The notes under the pieces were generated by a model that saw only the letters and a list, made by a program, of their open reading frames with translations, made no database searches and had not been told where the DNA came from. Of a DNA stretch of 26,573 nucleotides, positions 3,595 to 18,689 are shown piece after piece (the stretch's first letter is position 1; each line of letters begins with the position of its first letter). The position numbers were made by a program, and so were the translations under genes. The stretch lies in IMG/VR virus record IMGVR_UViG_3300025132_000237, positions 1 to 26,573 of that record; one strand, 5' to 3'. The stretch is from a virus.

Positions 3595-3615
3595 TTAATT
3601 ATATAATATTTTATC

Positions 3616-4815
3616 ATGGAAGAGAATAATGAAAACGTAGTTGACGAAACTACACAAGAAAAAACTGTAGAAACAGTTGATGAAACTAAATTTAATAGTG
3701 CTGGCGATGACAGTGTTATTAAAGTAGATTTAAGTAAACCAATTGAAAATGAAACCCAAGAAGAAACAACAGAAGCTGCAGATGACACAGCTGACGACGC
3801 AAGAGTGGTTGGAAGCAATGAAAACACCGAGCCCGTACAAGAACAAAAAGAAGTACAGCCGGAAGTCGAAGCACAAGAACAACCTGTAGTTGAAGAAGTA
3901 ACTGAAGAAGAAATAGCTGAAGAAGTAGAAGCTGTTGCTGAAGAAGTTGAGGAAGCTATTACTAAAGCTGAGGCTACAGGTGAACCGTTGCCAGAAAATA
4001 TTCAAAAGTTAGTTGACTTTATGAATGACACTGGTGGTGATTTAGAAGATTATGTAAGGCTAAATCAAGATTATTCAGAAATGGATAACTCATTAGCTTT
4101 ACAAGAGTATTATCGTTTAACTAAACCTCATCTTACAGAAGAAGAGCGTAGGTTTTTAATGGACGAAACTTTTTCATACGATGAGGATGTTGATGATGAA
4201 AGAGATATTAGAAAAAAGAAAATCGCTTTAAAAGAGCAAGTTGCCGAAGCGAAAGCCTACTTAGACGGGCAAAAGTCTAAATATTACGACGAAATCAAAG
4301 CTGGTTCAAAGCTTACGCCTGAACAACAAAAAGCTGTTGATTTCTTTAATCGATACAACAAAGAATCGAGCGAACAAAAAACTGTGGCTGAAAAGCAACA
4401 TAGAACGTTTTTAAACAAGACTAATCAATTATTCAATAATAAATTTAAAGGTTTTGAATATAATATTGGAGATAAAAAGTTTAGATTTAATGTTAAAAAT
4501 GTAGACAATGTTAAAGAAACCCAAAGCGACATTAACAACTTCGTCAAAAAGTTTTTGGCAGAAGATAACTCAATGTCAGACGCTAAAGGTTATCATAAGT
4601 CGTTATTTACGGCTATGAACGCAGACGCTGTTGCTCAACACTTTTACGAGCAAGGTAAAGCTGACGCACTCAAGGAGAGCGTTGCTAAATCTAAAAACGT
4701 GAATATGGATCCGCGACAACAATTTAGCGGTGTGCCAAATTCAAGTGGTATGAAGTTTAAAGTGTTAGGTGACAACTCGAACGATTTTAAGTTTAAGATT
4801 AAGAATAGAAAATAA
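3616..4815 (+). CDS. Capsid scaffolding protein (acidic, helical)
   Basis: This 399-residue protein sits between portal and major capsid protein, where head-assembly scaffolds are normally encoded. Roughly residues 1-125 are extremely acidic and low in complexity (Glu/Val/Thr repeats such as EEVTEEEIAEEVEAVAEEV), with no Cys. The middle is predicted helical (RDIRKKKIALKEQVAEAKAY), and the C-terminus turns basic (DFKFKIKNRK). An acidic N-terminus, helical core and basic C-terminus fit scaffolds that bind capsid protein through a charged tail and leave the shell after assembly. There is no clear protease motif. The call rests on position and composition rather than on a sequence-specific motif. 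Long ORFs on the opposite strand are artefacts of the GAA-rich coding strand. The gap to the capsid gene is 28 nt. Confidence 0.7.
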   Translation: MEENNENVVDETTQEKTVETVDETKFNSAGDDSVIKVDLSKPIENETQEETTEAADDTADDARVVGSNENTEPVQEQKEVQPEVEAQEQPVVEEVTEEEIAEEVEAVAEEVEEAITKAEATGEPLPENIQKLVDFMNDTGGDLEDYVRLNQDYSEMDNSLALQEYYRLTKPHLTEEERRFLMDETFSYDEDVDDERDIRKKKIALKEQVAEAKAYLDGQKSKYYDEIKAGSKLTPEQQKAVDFFNRYNKESSEQKTVAEKQHRTFLNKTNQLFNNKFKGFEYNIGDKKFRFNVKNVDNVKETQSDINNFVKKFLAEDNSMSDAKGYHKSLFTAMNADAVAQHFYEQGKADALKESVAKSKNVNMDPRQQFSGVPNSSGMKFKVLGDNSNDFKFKIKNRK

Positions 4816-6346: not shown

Positions 6347-6377
6347 GGTCGAGGGCTACGGCCCTCGATCTTTTTTT
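6347..6377 (+). terminator. Intrinsic terminator after the capsid gene, UACG-capped
   Basis: An 8-bp perfect stem, TCGAGGGC (6349-6356) with GCCCTCGA (6361-6368), is extended by one G-U and one G-C pair (6347-6348 with 6369-6370). It is closed by a TACG tetraloop (6357-6360) and followed at once by seven T residues (6371-6377). The C(UACG)G cap belongs to the extra-stable UNCG tetraloop class. It lies 10 nt after the capsid stop and 20 nt before the next ATG. Partial readthrough would step transcription down from head to tail genes. Confidence 0.93.
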
Positions 6378-6397
6378 AATTTTTATTATATTATATC

Positions 6398-7219
6398 ATG
6401 GCAAAAAAACAAACTAAGAAGGCTGAAGTAGCGCCTGAAGTAAAAGCTACTAATGAAATGGTTGAGGTTAAAATTAATCCTGAGCCTAAAAAACCAAAGT
6501 GGGAAATAAAAGATAGAGTTTATTATTTGACTAGACAAAGAAGGCCTCTTTCTTATATGCTTAAATCAGCTGACATATATTATTTTGATGAAGAAAAGGG
6601 TTATGAAAGAGAGTTGAAGTATTGTAAAAATCAAAAAACTCCTTTTGTAGACGAGATGATGGGTGACCAAAGATTAGAGCATATCATTTTTAGAAATGGA
6701 GCTTTACACGTTACAAGAAATCATCAGACTTTACAAAAGCTTTTATCGTTATATCACCCTCACAGAGATGTTCAGTTCTTTGAATATCAACCAGAGGTTG
6801 AAGCAGCTGATGAAGTTGAAATTTTAGAAGCTGAAATAGAAGCTTTGATGATAGCAAAAGATATTGATATTGATTTAGCTGAAGCTATCATGAGAGTTGA
6901 AGTAGGATCTAAGGTGTCAAGCATGAGTTCTAAGGAGCTTAAAAGAGATTTACTTATATTTGCTAAGAGAAATCCTGCGGTGTTCTTAGAATTAGCTACA
7001 GACGATAATGTTGCTCTTAGAAACTTTGGTATTAAAGCTACTGAACTTGGTATTATTAGGTTATCAGATGATCAACGTAACTTTTTATGGGCATCTAATG
7101 ATAGAAAACTTATGACTGTACCATTTGATGAGCATCCATACACAGCGCTAGCGCATTGGTTTAAAACTGATGAGGGTATGGAAATTTATACAAACATAGA
7201 AAAGCGATTAAACGCGTAA
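6398..7219 (+). CDS. Conserved phage protein of unknown function, after the capsid gene
   Basis: This 273-residue protein begins with a Lys-rich, probably disordered stretch (residues 1-35). A compact region follows (about 40-125) with YYLTRQRRPLSYMLKSADI, a YYFDEEKGYERELKY motif and FRNGALHVTRNHQTLQKLL. A highly acidic hinge (about 132-155) leads to a helical part with SMSSKELKRDLLIFAKRNP. The end has a MTVPFDEHPYTALAHWFK motif. I recall this architecture as recurrent in uncultured marine phage genomes right after the capsid gene, but know no assigned function. Its place between capsid and ring proteins suggests a head-completion or capsid-associated role. It is isolated between two intergenic hairpins, so its mRNA may be separately terminated or processed. 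Start: ATG after an A/T-rich leader, no Shine-Dalgarno. Confidence 0.85.
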   Translation: MAKKQTKKAEVAPEVKATNEMVEVKINPEPKKPKWEIKDRVYYLTRQRRPLSYMLKSADIYYFDEEKGYERELKYCKNQKTPFVDEMMGDQRLEHIIFRNGALHVTRNHQTLQKLLSLYHPHRDVQFFEYQPEVEAADEVEILEAEIEALMIAKDIDIDLAEAIMRVEVGSKVSSMSSKELKRDLLIFAKRNPAVFLELATDDNVALRNFGIKATELGIIRLSDDQRNFLWASNDRKLMTVPFDEHPYTALAHWFKTDEGMEIYTNIEKRLNA

Positions 7220-7225
7220 TCACTA

Positions 7226-7267
7226 TATAGTAGAGCAGCCACTCTACGGGGTGGTTGCTTAACTATA
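7226..7267 (+). promoter_or_regulatory. Long intergenic RNA hairpin with UACG tetraloop, no U-tract
   Basis: Bases 7226-7244 pair with 7249-7267 in a nearly continuous stem: 19 opposed positions giving 18 pairs, three of them G-U, with one A-A mismatch (7232/7261). The loop is TACG (7245-7248) closed by C-G. No T-run follows, so it is a poor classical terminator. It ends 13 nt before the GTG start of the next gene. Possible roles are an mRNA processing or stabilising site, a weak attenuator, or a translation-control structure. The pairing is visible; the role is inference. Confidence 0.7.
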
Positions 7268-7279
7268 AATAATGATGAC

Positions 7280-8044
7280 GTGGTAAATATAGATGCAGTA
7301 TATCAAACAGTATTAGCGCTAGCTAATAAAGAGCAAAGAGGCTATATAACTCCTCAAGAGTTTAACTTATTTGCAAATCAAGCTCAACAATCAATATTCG
7401 AGCAATACTTTTACGATTTAAATCAGTTCAAAAGAGTACCTGGTAATCAGTCAAACTACGCAGATATGACTAGTATTATCGAAGAGAAAATAGCTATATT
7501 TAATAGACGTATTCTCTTGCTTCAACTTGCTGGAGGAGTTTCTTTTTCTACTTTTGGTTTACCTAATGATTTTTACAGATTTATAAATGTTCAAGCTGAT
7601 TACTCTAGTAACTTTGGTAACACGTATGTTGATTTAGCGAAAGGACAAAGAGTCGTTGAAATTATGAGTATAGCAAAAGCTAACGAATTACTACACTCTG
7701 GACCTTTAGTTAGACCTACTGTTAATAGACCAATTGGCTATTTACAAGGAACAGCTGGAGCTCCGGTAGAACAACCATCAGCGCTAATAGTTTATCCAGA
7801 AGTACCAAGACTAAGAGTCGATTATGTAGCAAGACCTGATCAAGTGCAATGGGGCTATGTAGTTGTCAATGAAAAAGCTATTTGGAATCCAGGTGAATCT
7901 GAAAATTTTCAATTACACGAATCAGAGCAGAAAAATTTAGTTATAAAAATATTAAAACTAGCTGGAGTTTCTATTGAAGACGCAGGCCTAGTTCAAGTAG
8001 CTACTCAAGAAGAAATAAAAAGTATAAGACAAGAAAAAGCATAA
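7280..8044 (+). CDS. Ring/adaptor-like neck protein (first of two)
   Basis: The 254-residue product starts at a GTG. No ATG occurs in frame between the previous gene's stop and this codon, and the conserved N-terminal helix (VYQTVLALANKEQRGYITP) begins here. A nearby ATG pair at 7272 runs into a stop after four codons. The N-terminal part is helical with GYITPQEFNLFANQAQQ, a pattern I recognise from marine phage neck proteins. GLPNDFYRF (near residue 94) resembles the LPxDF/Y motif of portal-bound adaptor proteins of the T7 gp11 / P22 gp4 kind. A helical C-terminus would pack around the portal. Position between head genes and the large tail protein fits a ring or adaptor protein joining portal to tail. 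It lacks a Shine-Dalgarno and lies 13 nt after a long hairpin. Identification as a crAss-type ring protein is inferred. Confidence 0.68.
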   Translation: MVNIDAVYQTVLALANKEQRGYITPQEFNLFANQAQQSIFEQYFYDLNQFKRVPGNQSNYADMTSIIEEKIAIFNRRILLLQLAGGVSFSTFGLPNDFYRFINVQADYSSNFGNTYVDLAKGQRVVEIMSIAKANELLHSGPLVRPTVNRPIGYLQGTAGAPVEQPSALIVYPEVPRLRVDYVARPDQVQWGYVVVNEKAIWNPGESENFQLHESEQKNLVIKILKLAGVSIEDAGLVQVATQEEIKSIRQEKA

Positions 8045-9722: not shown

Positions 9723-12700
9723 ATGGCAGAGTTAAAGAATAACTTTCTTCAAGGTAAAATGAATCAAGACCTTGATGAAAGAATTTTACCTAAAGGACAG
9801 TATAGAACCGCGATGAACATACAAGTTTCTTCATCTGACGAAGATAGTGTAGGTACTGCTGAAAATATTCTTCCTAATCAATCTTTCTCTAATATTGCTT
9901 CAGTTCACCCTACCTGTAGATGCGTTGGTAGTATAGCTGATCCTTTAACAAATAGTATATATTGGTTTGTTCGTTGTCAAGATAGAGATGCTATAGTTAG
10001 ATATTCTCAAGACTCTGACACTTCTGAAATAATAGTTGCAGATTTAGGTAGAGCTAGAGCTAACTATGTCGGTGAGTTTAGATCAGCACCTCCTGTTCCT
10101 TTTTTAAACTTTACTGGCGAACAAATTACAGCTATTAGTATAGTAGATAATTATTTGTTTTTTACTGATGGTAATAGTGAGCCAAAAAGAATAGATTTAT
10201 CTAAAGATTACACTAATTATGGGCTTGGAGAAAACGGTGTTAATTTAGGTACAAATCAATCATTTAGACATCATTCAGTATTTAGGGCTAACGGACAAGA
10301 GCATGGGTTTTTGCAAGAACGACATATTACCGTTATAAAAGAAAAACCAACTAAAGCTCCTTTAGTAAGATTTACTAGTTCAGTTAATAATCCTGAAAAA
10401 AGTATATTTGAAAAACAAATACCTAGATTTTGCATTAGATATAGATACGACGACAATCAAGTTTCAGCGTTTGGTCCTTTTTCACAACCTGTATTTAACG
10501 CAGCTTTTCTTGAAGAGCAAGATTATAATGTGAACTTTTATAGTGACACTGAATATTATAACACTGCAATGTTAAATTACATAAGCTCTATAGAGCTGTA
10601 TAACTTTGTGTTACAAGATACGCCTGAAGATGTTGCTGAAATAGAATTATTGTATAAAAATGAAGATTCAACTGTAGTATACTCAATAGCAAAAATAACA
10701 AGAGACCAAGAAGAGTGGTCGCAACTTGGTAGTCTTTACACGCAGCTACAAATAGAGCAACCAGAAACTGTTGGTATTAGAGCAGATATTGCTACTGGAT
10801 CTTACACTATAAACAGCGAAAATATAACGGCAGCAATAGCTGAAGATCAATTGCTCAGAGTTTATGATAATGTTCCAAGAAAAGCTAGAGCTCAAGAAAT
10901 AGTTGGTAATAGAGTTGTTTATGGAAATTATACTCAGAACTATGATTTAGATCAAGCTGTAATACTCGACGCAAATTACGAGCACAACTATTACGATCCA
11001 ACATTAGTTAATTATAGCAACAGATTCTTTAATCAGCCGTACAGAACTATAAAGTCTCAACGAAAATATCAAATTGGATTATTATTTGGAGACATGTATG
11101 GTAGAGAGACTCCAATATTTACTTCTAAGCAAGGCTCTGTAAATGTGGACTGGTTTTACAATGGTCAAGAAAACGATCAATTATTTGATGATAAAAATGC
11201 TACTTTATCTAATAGACTGTTAGCTAGCGTAGATCCGCAAACTATACCTTCTTGGGCTAGTTATTATAAGTTTTACGTTAAAGAAACTTCAGGTAATTAC
11301 TTTAACTTATTAAACGATAGAATATATATACCTTATAGACACAGTGAGTTTGAAAACAAAGAAAATCATATATATTTAGCTTTTGCTTCAAAAGATAGAT
11401 CTAAAGTTTCTGAAGAGGATTATATCATATTAAAAACTATACTAAAAAGTCCAGCTCCTTATCAAGTTGGTCAAGATAACAAATACAAAATAATAGACAT
11501 TAGCAATGAAGCTCCAGAAGCAATTGCTTATAAGTTTTACGATCTTGGGTCAGTTGTAAATAACGAAAACTCTTTAACTGAAACTGGCGGTTTATTTACT
11601 CAAGGCGGTATAGGTGATACTAGTCAACGAATAGACAGAGAAACAGATACTATAATAATTAGCAAAGCTTTTTGGCAAGCCTTAGAGCAAGATGGTTCTG
11701 CCTTAACAAATTCAGAAGGCGGAGCAATTGAGTCTAGCAATAAAGTTGAAAACTTATACATGTCTTGGATTGTGGGTGATTTTCAGTCTGTAAAATACAA
11801 GATAGCTAACATAAGAATATCAGGTGATAATTATGTTATTAAATTATCAAGTAGAATTAGTCAAGCAGACGCGACTATAGCTAGCGTAGGCGGCGTTGAT
11901 TCTGAAGGTGAAATGGTAATATCAGATAACATAGCTGATGGATTAATATTTAAAATACAAAGAAAAGATAGATTTTCTAACGAAAATTTTTCAGGTAGTT
12001 TCTTTGTAAAAATTGCCGCTGATGATTTAATTAATAACGAGCTTGTAAACTTAGGATCTAATGTTAGTATTCTTGATTCTATATCAGGGCAAACAAATAT
12101 ATACGCTTGGCTTGATCAGGCTAGTAGTCAGCACTCTTTAACACAAATATCGAATGCTGAAAATGCAGCTGATATTAATAGTGTTTATGGTGGAAGCGCT
12201 ACAACTCCCGAAGACATTCACGGTGGAGACGGCATAACTAATACAGCTGCAGAGTGGGAAGTTATGTTAGCATCAAACACTGGTTTTGGTTCTGGTGATG
12301 GCAAATTTTTTATTGATGGTATGTATATGGCTGCCACTGCTAGTCCTTATAACAACGTAAATCATTATGCTTCTGACTCTGCTCAAGGATGGATAGGCTT
12401 TGACGCAATAAAATATCCTAGGCCAATGTGGAAAAAAGTTACTGATTATAGTTATACAAGCTCGTACAACTATGAAGGTGGGCAATCAACTCAGATGAAA
12501 CACAGGCGTCTTAGAGACAAAAAGCAATATGCTTGGGTTTTTGGCGGGAGTTATACCGCTCCAACTGGAGAGTTTGTAGAAACTGAAACGTTTTTCGGCA
12601 TGGGTGGTAATCTTACTGAGTCAGGACCAATATTACAGGCTAGAAGAGGTCATATTACAACGTCTGCAGGTAGTTTTAACACAAGCGCTTTAGAAAACGC

Positions 12701-15700
12701 AGGCTATACAGACGGTGATTACACTAATTCATATGTAAACGGTGTTGACCCTATAATTGAAGCTGGATCAGATCATACTGGCGAGCCTTCGGAAGGTCAA
12801 GGCTATAAAAGGTGGGTCAATAGTAAATATAGTTTTCCAAGAAATCCAGATGATACATATGAAGAAGGTGGGTTTTATATGCACTTATCTTTCTTAGGTC
12901 CTGGTGTTGATTTATTTACTGAGGCAGCTGAATATCCTACTAAAATAAATTTGATAGGACCTGACTCTTTAGGAAAACACTTGCAAGGAATATTTGGTGG
13001 CGGAGCGTTTACAAAACAAGATGGTAGTGTATTTAATAGTAACAGCTTAGAAAACGTTATAGAGCTGCAAGGGGCATACTTTAACGACAGCTACGACTCT
13101 GGCTATGTTGGTGGTTGGGGTGTACGAAGAGAGCCTGTGGCTTGGAGTGCTTATCCTGCACCTCAAAACATGAGCTCTGCACCAGGCGAAGTTCAGTTAA
13201 TAGGTTTTAATTCTAGTTATACAGAAGCTAATAATAAGCAGTTTGATCCAACGTATGGAGCTGAAAATCCAATAGGTGTTCAAGATATTTTAGATAAAAT
13301 TCAAGTTAATGGTAGGTTTAGATTTTCTGAAGATAGTGATAATGAAGTATACACTATACTAGGCGTTGAAAAAAAGCATGTGTATAATCACACACCTTGG
13401 AGGAAAAGAATGGAGTGGGATGGTGATAATTGGGTAGCTGGAGGTGATAGCGTTGAAGAAGCAATTATCGCTTGGGCTGACGCTCATTGCGTGGCAGATC
13501 ACACTACAGAAAATCTTGGTAACGCAGTTATAAATAGAGACTATGTTTCTACACAACCAAACGTTGGAACAGGCTATAATGATGAGTTTCAAGATGTTTT
13601 AGATAAACTGACTGCTTTTGGCTCTAGATCTAACAGAAGAGTTGTTTATGTGCTTAAGTTAGACAAAGATCCTAGAGGATCAAGCTTTAATCCTATAGCT
13701 CAAGCTAGTACTGGCTCAATAGAAGTTGATAATAACGCTAGTTTTATAGAGTTTATTGAGCCTGCTTCAAAATCTTATACTAGTGAGGTAACTACAAATA
13801 AAGCTATATTTGAGACTGAGCCTCAAGACTCTGCTGATATAGATATTTATTACGAAGCTAGTGACGCTATACCAGTTAGCTTAGGTTCAGATTTAATTCA
13901 CAATTATTTACCCGTAGGCTCTAAAGTTGAAATCATAGACTTTGATGATGCTTTAAATGACTCTGGAGATAAAGTTTTAAGGACTGTTTTTCCAATTTTC
14001 AATCAAGAAACCAACGTATTTGAAGCTCAAATACAAGTACGTGGATTTAATGAACAAGTTATAGGTTTTAATGAAAACAGTGCGAGTACTGGTGAAGCAT
14101 TAGACTATACTGGCGTTAGGCTAAGAGTCGTAAAACCAGATGGGTCTTACAGTGATTTTACAATAAGTAGTACACTAGGTGCTGTTAATAATTTTATATC
14201 TACTTTTAATATAGTATTAGATCACTCTTTGTTTCAAGGACTAAATTTTTATAACGCATTTAGCTTTGGAAGTGGTGTTGAGTCTGATACTGTAAGAGAT
14301 GATTTTAACGGTAACAGAATTACAACTGGCGCTAGAGCTTCTACTACTTTAGACGAGCCTTACGCTGAAGAAACAAGAGAAAATGGTTTAATATTTTCTG
14401 GCATATATAATTCTAACGGTAGAATTAACAATTTAAATCAGTTTATACAAGCTCAAAAGATAACTAAAGACTTAAACCCAACGTACGGTAGTATACAAAA
14501 GCTTTTTCAAAGACAAACAGATTTAGTTGTATTTTGCGAAGACAGGGTAGTTAAAGTTTTAGCCAACAAAGACGCTATATTCAACGCTGACGGTAATCCT
14601 CAGCTTGTTGCTAACGAAAATGTTCTTGGTCAAGTTAGACCGTTTGTTGGTGATTATGGTATAGCGACTAATCCTGAATCTTTCGCGTCTGAATCTTACA
14701 GAGCTTACTTTACAGACAGGCAAAAGCAAAAAGTATTAAGATTATCTATGGACGGTCTTACGCCAATATCTGACGCTGGTATGAAAGACTGGTTTAGAGA
14801 TAACTTACAATTTACAAACATACTGTGTTTAGGCACTTATGATGAGAATAAAAAAGAATATAATTTAACTCTAAGAAACGCAATAAACGCAAACGTTATT
14901 CAAAATGCTTTCTTTGAAGAAGCTTTGCCTTTAATAGAAACTTTTACTGGAGAAGAACTAGTACAAAATCCTAATTTTAATGGAGGCGAAGATTTTACTA
15001 CAGTTGATTTTGTTGGTGATATTTTTGAAACAGAGCAAGATCTTATAGGAGGCTTTAACTCTGATCTTGACACTACTGTTACAGTAAATTATTGGCCAGA
15101 ACTAACTATAGGAAGTATTTTTGAAGGAGTTGACATACCACCGCAAGAAGGTCAAGACAGTGTCTTTGCATTTAACACAGGCTCTTGGACAAACGGATGG
15201 TCGAATAATTATTTTGATGGACCAGATCCCAGCCTGTTAACAAACCAATTTGGCGGCACGATGAACTTTACTGGTATTAATCAAAATCCTTTTGTATCTA
15301 ACAATGACAATGGGCCGGGTACAGGCGGCTATACTTCTGCAATGTTTCCTCGATGTACTGCTTATGGAACTGGTATAACCGCTAGTACTATTGATCTTAC
15401 GCAAGCTTATCACTTTACTTATGAAGATGAAACTAGCGCCAACGGGGTATCTTCGGCGCCTTTTAATATAGGCTCACCAGAACATCCCGTGCAGCATGTA
15501 GGATTAGTATTTAGCATACCAAGTGGGGAAGTAACCGCCAATAATGTTGCTACATATATTCTTCCATATACAAGACTGTCTTATAGCAGTTGGTCGCGCG
15601 GTTTGCCTTACAGTGTTGGTAATTGGATTAATAATCCCGCGAATATAAATGACGTAGACTATAGCTCGGCAGATAATATGACCATGTTTAATGGTGAAGA

Positions 15701-18689
15701 AATTAAAATTACGTTTAAAGTTAAAGCTGATTACCAAGGAAACGTTCCTTGCCGTTTTAGATTACAATTAATCGATGGCAACGCAGGCAATGTAATTCCT
15801 AATGAGTATGTTCAAGTACAAGCTGTTGAGGAAGGAACTAATGGCACGGATGCCGCTGATGCTTTGCCTTATGGATCTATTAGATCAATTCAACATTACG
15901 GCGGCGAAGAGTTAAACTATGGAAGTGATTCTTTTGATTTTACCAGTTCTGCCGTTGGCGATAGAAAAGGTTTTCAAACTAGCACAACGATTGATTTTGA
16001 AAAAATTGGAGCCGGAGAAAACTTAGATTTTGATGATTTAGGTGATGATGGTTGGTTTACGTTTTCTGCTTGGTTTAAATTTCAAAACGGTTACGAAGAA
16101 AGTATTGTTGTTAATGATTTAAAAGCAAGGCTTTACTACATGCACAATAGTGATGGTATTGAGTCGACTTCATCAACTGAATATTCTCAAGTTGTTATAG
16201 ATTATTTTATTATTAAAAAGTATTATAGACTTGAAGAGCCGCAAATTACTCAAGTTGGAGCAGAAATTAATATTCCACCAGTGCCAGAAGAAAATATACC
16301 GGCTTGGACAGAAGTTATATACAATGGTTTTGACGATTGGAATACTAACACTTGGCAAGGTAATGTAGTAGCGTCAAATGCAGCCGGCGTTAATTTTGGC
16401 CCACAAGTTTTAGGTGGTGTTCAATCAGTAATATTGCCAAATGGCACAACGTATTCTTACAATGCTCCAACAAGTAGTGGAAATCAATTTACGCCAGATC
16501 CATTAAATCCTCCTATAGGAAACGCAGTTATTTCGACTACACATCCACAAACAGGATTACCTTATACTACTGTAACTTACGATCTGCAAGGTAGCAACTC
16601 TGGAGTATTGTTTAGTCCTACGCCAGGTTCGCCTGCTAGTATAACTCAATTTCTAGATGATGCAGAATACGATAGAACAATAAAAAAAGGTAATTGGTAT
16701 TTAGTTGAAGCAGTAGTTGATCCTACAAATCCAATAAACTCGTGGTATTACGATGCTAATCCAGCTTTAATGCTTAGAACTCAAGCTATAGTTGGCGATG
16801 TTGACACTAACATGGCTCAAATTAATCAAGCTTTAGGTATTAGTCATGAGGATATTAATAATCCTAACTTTGAAAATTATCCTTTATATCATTTTGGGCA
16901 AATATGGCTTCAATCATTTGGTGCAGACTCCAACGCTCCTAAAAGAATGGAGCTCATGCCTACAACAAGAAGCTGGTATGGCGAAGAAGTTCCAATACTG
17001 ATGGCTATATTTCAAGCGGGTGAAGATTCTAATGAGTTTACTCTGCAGTGCGTAAAAGCTACAGCTGCAAGCGACGAGCAGTTATTGCTAGATAGTATAA
17101 AAATATATGATATTACACAGACAGCGTCAATGTTAGAGCCAACCTCCTGGGATATACAGCCTGCCGGTTATCAACAACCTCATGCTCTTCCTCAGTTAGT
17201 ATCTGAATTTTTTCCGGACGCAAACGCGGAAGTGTATTACAAAGGCGGACAAGTAAATTGGAATTCTACTGGAGATGGTTCGTTTTATTATTTAACTCAA
17301 GGCTCTAGTGATAATGCTATAAATGAATTTGAAGTTAGTCAAGCTGGCTACGTAATGACTTTTGAAATAACAAGTCACATTGATTTTCCAGGCGAAGATC
17401 CACAAGGTCGATTAATAGCGCAAGTTAGAAACTTTGTAGGTGATCAAAACTTTGGTTTTATTGCAATTATTGATAATCCAGTAGTTGGAATATATACTAT
17501 TGAGTTCAACTACGATGGATCTACTCCAACTGTAATTTCTCAGCCAGAAGGCTCAGAAGTAACAATTAATAATCCACCGACTACTACTAGCTCTGCTTTT
17601 GGTTTCGTAGCCTCTCCTTCACAAGGTTTTTTTGGTGGACTTAAGAATATATCAGTTTATGATCAAACAACTTTATTCAGTGGTGGAGCTTTAGGTAGTT
17701 GGAGCTTTTTAGAAGGCGTACAGTGGAATGAAAGTGAAGAAAATATACAATTTACAGACGCTGAAGGAATAAACAATACTTTAGGAATTATTGCCGCTAT
17801 GCAGAACATAGGTGAACTAGCAACTGACAGCGCTTATGGTTTGGAATTTACTGTTGTAAATCCATTTAATATTCCTTTAAATTACTATTATTTTAATCCT
17901 CAAGGTCAAGGGTTTTTTGGTACAGTAAGCGCTAGCACAGACGTTAACGTGCAGCACGTTGTTGGCGAACAATCTTTATTGCCAGATTATCAAGGATCTT
18001 TAGTTAATGCTTTAGTATTTTATATAGACGACAACGAAGAGCTACTAGAAATAACTACACAAAATCAAGATGGTGAAGATCAAACAGAAATTGTAGAAGC
18101 TTTTTTAACTATAGATAATGTATACTTAAATCAATTACCTGCAATTGGATTTAATCCTTCAACTATTTCGTACAGCGAAGATGTAAAAGGTTGGGTTAGC
18201 TTTAAGTCATTTATACCAGAAAGCGGTTTGAGCTTAGGGTCTAACTATTACACTTTTAATTTAGCAGGTCTTTATAGGCATCATATTGAAACTATAGCTG
18301 GCTATAATCAATTTTATGGTAGGCCTAGAGTTAACTCTGAAATAACGTTCATATTTAACGATGCTACTTCTATTTCAAAAGAATTTCAAACTGTTGCTTA
18401 CGAAGGTAGTAGAGCAAGAAGACAAAGGTTTTCTACTAGAGACGGGCTAACAGAAACAATAACACCTGATAATTTGTTTTTAAGCGCTAACGGTGGATTT
18501 TCGCCAGGCTGGTTTGTTTCAAATATTCAAACTGATTTACAAAGAGGATCAATACCAAATTTTATTAAAAAAGAAGGTAAATACCACAACTATATAACTG
18601 GAGCCAACGTTGACTTTAGGAATTCAGACGATATTGGCAGACTAAACGTGCAAGGACTAGGATTTGCTACGACAGTAGTTGTAACTTAA
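9723..18689 (+). CDS. Giant muzzle/nozzle-type tail protein ('stabilization protein' family)
   Basis: At 2,988 residues this is the largest complete gene here. The N-terminus carries the family signature LQGKMNQDLDERILPKGQY followed by an NIQVSSSDED stretch. This resembles the opening of beta-propeller nozzle proteins (T7 gp12, P22 gp10) and of the crAss-like muzzle/'stabilization' protein. Family blocks recur later: AIFETEPQDSADIDIYYEAS near 1361-1380, propeller-like blades ending in KKEYNLTL near 1716, and GWVSFKSFIPESGLSLGSNY with YEGSRARR near 2820-2905. Normally, as I recall, the last two blocks are close together; here about 1,100 residues separate them. No signal peptide or long hydrophobic segment is seen. 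The product should form the exit of the short tail, closing the DNA channel and possibly touching the receptor. It sits 3 nt after the ring protein and 15 nt before the next gene. The family call is fairly secure; the exact structural role is inferred. Confidence 0.8.
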   Translation: MAELKNNFLQGKMNQDLDERILPKGQYRTAMNIQVSSSDEDSVGTAENILPNQSFSNIASVHPTCRCVGSIADPLTNSIYWFVRCQDRDAIVRYSQDSDTSEIIVADLGRARANYVGEFRSAPPVPFLNFTGEQITAISIVDNYLFFTDGNSEPKRIDLSKDYTNYGLGENGVNLGTNQSFRHHSVFRANGQEHGFLQERHITVIKEKPTKAPLVRFTSSVNNPEKSIFEKQIPRFCIRYRYDDNQVSAFGPFSQPVFNAAFLEEQDYNVNFYSDTEYYNTAMLNYISSIELYNFVLQDTPEDVAEIELLYKNEDSTVVYSIAKITRDQEEWSQLGSLYTQLQIEQPETVGIRADIATGSYTINSENITAAIAEDQLLRVYDNVPRKARAQEIVGNRVVYGNYTQNYDLDQAVILDANYEHNYYDPTLVNYSNRFFNQPYRTIKSQRKYQIGLLFGDMYGRETPIFTSKQGSVNVDWFYNGQENDQLFDDKNATLSNRLLASVDPQTIPSWASYYKFYVKETSGNYFNLLNDRIYIPYRHSEFENKENHIYLAFASKDRSKVSEEDYIILKTILKSPAPYQVGQDNKYKIIDISNEAPEAIAYKFYDLGSVVNNENSLTETGGLFTQGGIGDTSQRIDRETDTIIISKAFWQALEQDGSALTNSEGGAIESSNKVENLYMSWIVGDFQSVKYKIANIRISGDNYVIKLSSRISQADATIASVGGVDSEGEMVISDNIADGLIFKIQRKDRFSNENFSGSFFVKIAADDLINNELVNLGSNVSILDSISGQTNIYAWLDQASSQHSLTQISNAENAADINSVYGGSATTPEDIHGGDGITNTAAEWEVMLASNTGFGSGDGKFFIDGMYMAATASPYNNVNHYASDSAQGWIGFDAIKYPRPMWKKVTDYSYTSSYNYEGGQSTQMKHRRLRDKKQYAWVFGGSYTAPTGEFVETETFFGMGGNLTESGPILQARRGHITTSAGSFNTSALENAGYTDGDYTNSYVNGVDPIIEAGSDHTGEPSEGQGYKRWVNSKYSFPRNPDDTYEEGGFYMHLSFLGPGVDLFTEAAEYPTKINLIGPDSLGKHLQGIFGGGAFTKQDGSVFNSNSLENVIELQGAYFNDSYDSGYVGGWGVRREPVAWSAYPAPQNMSSAPGEVQLIGFNSSYTEANNKQFDPTYGAENPIGVQDILDKIQVNGRFRFSEDSDNEVYTILGVEKKHVYNHTPWRKRMEWDGDNWVAGGDSVEEAIIAWADAHCVADHTTENLGNAVINRDYVSTQPNVGTGYNDEFQDVLDKLTAFGSRSNRRVVYVLKLDKDPRGSSFNPIAQASTGSIEVDNNASFIEFIEPASKSYTSEVTTNKAIFETEPQDSADIDIYYEASDAIPVSLGSDLIHNYLPVGSKVEIIDFDDALNDSGDKVLRTVFPIFNQETNVFEAQIQVRGFNEQVIGFNENSASTGEALDYTGVRLRVVKPDGSYSDFTISSTLGAVNNFISTFNIVLDHSLFQGLNFYNAFSFGSGVESDTVRDDFNGNRITTGARASTTLDEPYAEETRENGLIFSGIYNSNGRINNLNQFIQAQKITKDLNPTYGSIQKLFQRQTDLVVFCEDRVVKVLANKDAIFNADGNPQLVANENVLGQVRPFVGDYGIATNPESFASESYRAYFTDRQKQKVLRLSMDGLTPISDAGMKDWFRDNLQFTNILCLGTYDENKKEYNLTLRNAINANVIQNAFFEEALPLIETFTGEELVQNPNFNGGEDFTTVDFVGDIFETEQDLIGGFNSDLDTTVTVNYWPELTIGSIFEGVDIPPQEGQDSVFAFNTGSWTNGWSNNYFDGPDPSLLTNQFGGTMNFTGINQNPFVSNNDNGPGTGGYTSAMFPRCTAYGTGITASTIDLTQAYHFTYEDETSANGVSSAPFNIGSPEHPVQHVGLVFSIPSGEVTANNVATYILPYTRLSYSSWSRGLPYSVGNWINNPANINDVDYSSADNMTMFNGEEIKITFKVKADYQGNVPCRFRLQLIDGNAGNVIPNEYVQVQAVEEGTNGTDAADALPYGSIRSIQHYGGEELNYGSDSFDFTSSAVGDRKGFQTSTTIDFEKIGAGENLDFDDLGDDGWFTFSAWFKFQNGYEESIVVNDLKARLYYMHNSDGIESTSSTEYSQVVIDYFIIKKYYRLEEPQITQVGAEINIPPVPEENIPAWTEVIYNGFDDWNTNTWQGNVVASNAAGVNFGPQVLGGVQSVILPNGTTYSYNAPTSSGNQFTPDPLNPPIGNAVISTTHPQTGLPYTTVTYDLQGSNSGVLFSPTPGSPASITQFLDDAEYDRTIKKGNWYLVEAVVDPTNPINSWYYDANPALMLRTQAIVGDVDTNMAQINQALGISHEDINNPNFENYPLYHFGQIWLQSFGADSNAPKRMELMPTTRSWYGEEVPILMAIFQAGEDSNEFTLQCVKATAASDEQLLLDSIKIYDITQTASMLEPTSWDIQPAGYQQPHALPQLVSEFFPDANAEVYYKGGQVNWNSTGDGSFYYLTQGSSDNAINEFEVSQAGYVMTFEITSHIDFPGEDPQGRLIAQVRNFVGDQNFGFIAIIDNPVVGIYTIEFNYDGSTPTVISQPEGSEVTINNPPTTTSSAFGFVASPSQGFFGGLKNISVYDQTTLFSGGALGSWSFLEGVQWNESEENIQFTDAEGINNTLGIIAAMQNIGELATDSAYGLEFTVVNPFNIPLNYYYFNPQGQGFFGTVSASTDVNVQHVVGEQSLLPDYQGSLVNALVFYIDDNEELLEITTQNQDGEDQTEIVEAFLTIDNVYLNQLPAIGFNPSTISYSEDVKGWVSFKSFIPESGLSLGSNYYTFNLAGLYRHHIETIAGYNQFYGRPRVNSEITFIFNDATSISKEFQTVAYEGSRARRQRFSTRDGLTETITPDNLFLSANGGFSPGWFVSNIQTDLQRGSIPNFIKKEGKYHNYITGANVDFRNSDDIGRLNVQGLGFATTVVVT
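14871..18161 (+). other. Inserted multi-domain block inside the muzzle protein (residues about 1717-2813)
   Basis: This block lies between two conserved parts of the muzzle protein. It looks like several carbohydrate-binding-type jelly rolls in a row, with recurring openings such as ELVQNPNFNGG (about 1745), WTEVIYNGFDDWNTNTWQGN (about 2195), GGQVNWNSTGDGSFYYL (about 2508) and GGALGSWSFLEGVQWN (about 2655). Each is followed by beta-rich, aromatic- and Asn-rich sequence. Isoleucine codon choice also changes: ATA is 8 of 28 Ile codons in 15100-16320 against roughly 21 of 30 at the start of the gene (hand counts). The boundaries are approximate and the domain type is inferred from pattern only. 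Confidence 0.55.

Follow-up and report, generated by a model that had tools for sequence, protein, structure and literature searches.

What sets apart the gene that lies between the capsid gene and the first connector-region gene of this phage, and what do the hairpins on either side of it do? The window analyzed here, a virus contig of 26.6 kb (26,573 nucleotides), carries terminase, portal, capsid and connector/tail-type genes that all run in the same direction, and its phage belongs to an uncultured group whose relatives are cultured Flavobacterium and Cellulophaga phages. The gene in question, p1, sits between the capsid gene and the structural gene p2 (Table 1) and is the only one in the stretch with 60-nt gaps on both sides. 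Each gap contains a hairpin capped by C(TACG)G, referred to below as hairpin 1 (capsid-p1) and hairpin 2 (p1-p2). A sequence-only reading had proposed that the identical caps mark p1 as a separated unit, for example terminated on one side and cut or protected on the other. The two hairpins, the 273-residue gene between them and the U-tract at only one of them were all found as described, and p1 is indeed bracketed, although the RNA elements at its two boundaries differ in kind and are not linked through a shared cap.

For comparison, a p2 scan yielded 597 relatives, the best 80 of which were kept together with the window (81 loci), and 168 p1 representatives at 90% identity were drawn from 355 proteins. 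The latter were assigned to groups w, c, e and m by best-scoring p1 query, not by a tree, and the window group denotes w plus c; it comprises 118 representatives after manual removal of one locus, L093, whose score put it in c although its identity of 36% marks it as an outgroup. The first 50 kb of phage phi14:2, where no capsid gene was seen, were left out of the comparison. Three of the group's phage contigs (L084, L085 and L086) lie in genome bins labeled Maricaulis and Sphingobacteriales, and are perhaps free phage contigs binned together with bacteria.

Table 1. Features of the capsid-p1-p2 region, in window coordinates
Feature	Position	Strand	Basis or remark
Major capsid / virion structural protein gene, 497 aa	4844..6337	+	phrog_13704 'virion structural protein', E 1.6e-94
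Hairpin 1, GGTCGAGGGC-TACG-GCCCTCGATC, 10-bp stem, UACG loop	6347..6370	+	
Hairpin 1 U-tract, TTTTTTT (T7)	6371..6377	+	directly after stem
AT-rich leader TATTATATTATAT just 5' of p1 start, candidate promoter or leader	6383..6397	+	upstream consensus
p1, 273 aa, function unknown	6398..7219	+	phrog_34748 (unknown function), E 9.5e-21
p1 stop and conserved UCA (UAAUCA)	7217..7222	+	TAATCA in 60 w-/c-type representatives
Hairpin 2 lower stem, 5' arm TATAGT	7226..7231	+	pairs with 7262-7267
Hairpin 2 upper stem, UACG tetraloop at 7245-7248	7234..7259	+	covariation
Hairpin 2 lower stem, 3' arm ACTATA	7262..7267	+	
p2, virion structural protein (ring/connector region), GTG start	7280..8044	+	phrog_14543, E 1.9e-35

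The terminator behind the capsid gene and the p1 protein

Hairpin 1 is an ordinary intrinsic transcription terminator. Both hallmarks of that class are present, a stable GC-rich stem-loop (7 GC among 10 bp; -20.6 kcal/mol, z -5.9, with 0 of 200 shuffles as good) and an immediate U-tract, which accords with the suggestion of termination on one side of p1; the outgroups described below have terminators at both boundaries. A hairpin occupies the capsid-p1 gap in 81 of 81 loci (the window and the best 80 of 597 relatives), where its sequence varies freely while position and U-tract are kept, and a U-rich tail (T8>=5) follows it in 102 of 110 window-group representatives. Termination at this site is probably partial.

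The same comparison removes the cap as a connection between the two sites. UNCG is the usual cap at both, with CTTCGG in 75 and CTACGG in 2 of the 110 window-group representatives at hairpin 1, versus CTACGG in 50 and CTTCGG in 22 of 118 at hairpin 2. These loop counts point to incidental use of a common stable tetraloop, and the shared-cap reading is rejected on the rarity of CTACGG at hairpin 1. Within the window CTACGG occurs 7 times versus 3.98 expected, an unremarkable number that 7 of 100 shuffles reach.

Just upstream of p1, the TATTATATTATAT-type leader is conserved in both w-type (n=76) and c-type (n=31) loci and is possibly a phage promoter or leader. A similar stretch, TTATATAATAT, lies at 3599-3609, ahead of the gene at 3616. 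A sigma-70-type promoter scan of the window returned 76 candidates versus 68.9 expected, and a search of 13 contigs for a T7-type RNA polymerase (PF00940) gave no match, with the control likewise matching nowhere.

The AlphaFold2 model of p1 has a mean pLDDT of 89.5. Its fold has no match in the PDB at E<=0.001, its sequence profile finds nothing credible there, and a Pfam search assigned a family to neither p1 nor p2. Among viruses, fold matches were obtained for Tenacibaculum phage Gundel_1, crAss-like viruses, phi14:2 and Azobacteroides phage ProJPt-Bp1. The gene in the capsid position is annotated as a structural protein in relatives and as the major head protein in crAss001, where gp33, encoded directly 3' of it, matches the p1 profile weakly (17.6 bits). 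A terminator-like hairpin lies between the two crAss001 genes (L367, 29817-29893), and gp33 has almost no gap downstream; the term gp33 does not appear in the available part of the main text of the crAss001 virion paper (PMC10172136). This layout suggests that the capsid-terminator-p1 arrangement may be old and that what varies is the p1-p2 boundary. Farther downstream in the window, after the connector-type genes, positions 9723-18689 form a single open frame of 2988 aa and unknown function.

Hairpin 2 is a conserved RNA structure anchored to the p1 stop codon

Hairpin 2 (7226-7267) consists of a lower and an upper stem separated by a small A-rich internal loop, and the region 7217-7282 folds at -28.3 kcal/mol (z -6.5; 0 of 200 shuffles as good). 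No U-tract follows it in the window, where the tail reads AACTATAAATAA. Among the 118 window-group representatives the lower stem is TGTAG/CTACA in 56 and TATAG/CTATA in 12, and the internal loop is GA/AAA in 29 and AA/AAA in 17. The lower stem and internal loop are more uniform in sequence than the upper stem and would suit recognition by a nuclease or another protein.

A two-part hairpin is found between p1 and p2 in nearly all of the 81 loci (best 80 of 597 relatives plus the window), and its placement is strict. On the + strand exactly one match occurs in 74 of 81 sources, every one at p1-p2 (the sources without a match are L029, L056, L060, L065, L072, L078 and L079), and of 13 whole contigs 6 contain a single strong match, several of the other 7 being c-type or terminator-type forms. 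The exact pattern occurs in 87 stretches across the viral collection and 101 times in the collected loci, which derive from partly overlapping contigs; in 100 of 100 evaluable occurrences it starts exactly 7 nt past the p1 stop, the 101st lying at a locus end without p1. The spacing to p2, by contrast, is not fixed (17-23 nt, or 188 and 197 nt), and hairpin 2 stays at the p1 stop despite a gene inserted before p2 in the window-group loci L062, L282, L344, L167 and L112. In the first three of these the insert is a short gene, and the three inserts look related by eye.

The sequence-only reading had called for covariation analysis in related phages, and hairpin 2 responds to it clearly in aggregate. 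Of 719 cells in an alignment of 48 distinct sequences that was made without regard to structure, 96.7% pair, and double changes are seen in 116 versus 39.2 in shuffles. Because shuffles ignore kinship, changes were rebuilt on a tree of the p1 protein, yielding 52 pairing-keeping coincident double changes versus a null of 6.2 (sd 2.4, max 16, 2000 simulations). In the alignment A1 (49 sequences, 15 pairs; without near-duplicates and without L021, L027, L029, L030, L033, L046, L056, L060, L072, L078 and L079), 52 of 53 coincident changes keep pairing, whereas control alignments with partner columns slid by 1-4 give 8-25 coincident changes, 0-11 of them pairing. Wholesale replacement of the hairpin thus does not explain the pattern. 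A stricter per-pair tree-aware test is marginal, with two pairs at E<=0.05 and one at 0.075 on A1, and top three E-values of 0.05-0.14 on an 88-sequence set that likewise left out selected rows. Over the 15 column pairs, 85 G-U cells stand against 4 A-C cells, an asymmetry that points to selection on the + strand RNA. With compensatory changes beyond phylogenetic expectation, hairpin 2 is a structured cis RNA element conserved across the window's phage group. It is hit by no Rfam family: the window and five relatives gave 0 matches at gathering score, the L035 region none at E<=1, and permissive thresholds only sub-threshold matches elsewhere.

A proposed change from terminator and promoter motif to a U-less hairpin

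The outgroups show what else this junction can hold. Ordinary U-tract hairpins lie on both sides of p1 in the Flavobacterium elemo phages, in Cellulophaga phi38:1 and Calle_3, and in the Manatee Spring phage, and TAnnTTTG, which we take to be the Bacteroidetes -7 element, often comes after them; in phi18:3, phi19:3 and phi13:2, p1 and p2 are separated by a block of genes, most or all of which run on the opposite strand. At p1-p2, TAnnTTTG is present in 34 of 36 m-type and 6 of 6 e-type representatives versus 0 of 118 in the window group (shuffled expectations 2.0, 0.3 and 0.9, respectively). A U-tract passes the threshold in 35 of 36, 6 of 6 and 3 of 118, respectively, when counted in the tail after the longest stem, a procedure that undercounts members in which an A-run pairs with the U-run; four further members are U-tailed by eye (L056, L060, L079 and L107), bringing the window group to about 7 of 118. 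In L056, L072 and L079 the U-run comes right after the hairpin 2 upper stem, which suggests that terminator and U-less states can interchange. Many m-type loci have large p1-p2 gaps; these seem to reflect misplaced p2 starts and were not counted as insertions.

Hairpin 2 therefore occupies, in the window group, the place held elsewhere by a terminator and a promoter motif. Judging from this distribution, U-tract and motif appear to have been lost together while a hairpin was kept, and on these grounds we read p1-p2 as a boundary whose mode has changed. We tentatively propose, as a reading with a real but not commanding claim, that the junction went from terminating and restarting transcription to reading through and then protecting or cutting the RNA, so that the p1 mRNA would be uncoupled from the downstream genes. 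The ancestral junction, if the direction of change is as supposed, would have been a terminator followed by a new promoter. With both signals lost, RNA polymerase would have to read into p2 and the tail genes, or else transcription might start at an unrecognized promoter; where TAnnTTTG is absent, a promoter of another type may be present. The retained hairpin would have become a covarying two-part helix acting on the RNA after its synthesis, setting or protecting the 3' end of the mRNA that includes p1; this might involve cleavage at the conserved A-rich internal loop or close to it, and p1 dosage would thereby be uncoupled from that of the genes downstream. A more specific version, that the lineage swapped terminator and promoter for a dedicated hairpin recognized by a protein or nuclease at a fixed distance from the p1 stop, we regard as possible but somewhat doubtful.

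Several observations weigh against readthrough followed by protection or cutting. At about 15-21 bp in most members, and interrupted by the internal loop, the helix is shorter than a classical RNase III site; the terminator of outgroup locus L188 adjoins p2 rather than p1; the per-pair covariation test is marginal; and none of the 110 window-group representatives has TAnnTTTG after hairpin 1 either. Moreover, the same conservation would be expected of a hairpin that did nothing but block reinitiation at p2.

The last point leads to an unlikely, yet still the most serious, rival, namely that hairpin 2 is a translational element, either preventing ribosome reinitiation at p2 or serving as the operator through which a phage protein tunes p2 translation. 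Its upper stem mostly ends 18-23 nt 5' of the p2 start, its lower stem and internal loop have the uniformity noted above, and the junction is unusually open given that several neighboring genes of the window lie within 3-4 nt of each other (1167/1171, 8044/8049 and 9719/9723); this account sits poorly, however, with anchoring to the p1 stop rather than to the p2 start even where a gene is inserted, and with the terminators that outgroups carry at the same junction. The p2 start itself, overlapped in the window by a minimal ATGATGACGTGGTAA frame, is ATG in 108 of 111 window-group representatives; the window, L003 and L004 are the three with GTG.

Less probable again is that hairpin 2 works as an intrinsic terminator, weak or in decay, or as a pause hairpin, and still stops or delays some polymerases. 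True terminators at p1-p2 in outgroups and U-runs in L056, L060, L072, L079, L106 and L107 would accord with such an origin, but a U-tract is missing in nearly all of the 118 representatives, and decay would produce neither the lower stem nor the strong selection for preserved pairs. An element acting as DNA is very improbable, be it a hairpin promoter of the type used by the N4 virion RNA polymerase, a REP-like palindrome, or a recombination or packaging site. GTAG-type REP elements carry GTAG before a GC-rich palindrome, as some hairpin 2 variants do; yet REPs are multicopy, whereas each source has one strong copy of hairpin 2, N4-type hairpin promoters are read from the template strand, and the wobble asymmetry favors the + strand RNA, so that hairpin promoter and REP are both disfavored. 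Translational joining of p1 and p2, by stop readthrough or by ribosome bypass of the T4 gene 60 kind, prompted by the frame that p1 and p2 of the window share open across hairpin 2 (7217-7283) and by a UNCG hairpin after the stop codon, is rejected, since among 111 short-gap window-group representatives the frame offset is 0 in 35, 1 in 45 and 2 in 31, and the frames are joined and open in 8.

The junction thus offers a comparative series at a single site, running from terminator plus motif in outgroups to the U-less covarying hairpin of the window group, with occasional terminators within that group. Were processing or protection to prove true, it would show how such phages set capsid-region stoichiometry posttranscriptionally, and the covariance model supplied would serve to find hairpin 2 elsewhere; were a dedicated hairpin indeed the replacement, it would represent a new class of phage mRNA 3'-end element.

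Hairpin 2 among known boundary elements

In T7, T-phi is an intrinsic terminator behind the capsid gene, and R1.1 is an RNase III processing hairpin between phage genes. Hairpin 1 resembles the former and phage late-operon terminators in general, with its GC-rich stem, UNCG-type loop and U7 directly after the capsid gene. Hairpin 2 differs from them in having no U-tract but a second, lower stem, an internal loop and group-wide covariation, and it resembles R1.1 and other RNase III hairpins in its intergenic position, in its two stems around an internal loop and in that it would separate neighboring mRNAs, although its total helix is shorter than in classical sites.

Parallels also exist outside phage transcription units. 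Like REP and BIME elements, including the GTAG-tagged REPs (PMC3733652), hairpin 2 is a 3'-side palindrome that could shield mRNA 3' ends, but it is single copy and fixed to one gene, and its GTAG, where present, is base-paired. Like the L17 downstream element and similar 3'-UTR RNAs (PMC2864571), it is a conserved structured RNA 3' of a particular gene, yet it comes from a different lineage and has no Rfam match. No published description of hairpin 2 was recognized in the literature searched, which was covered mostly at the level of bibliographic entries. We would class hairpin 2 among the intergenic mRNA boundary hairpins, as a variant of them.
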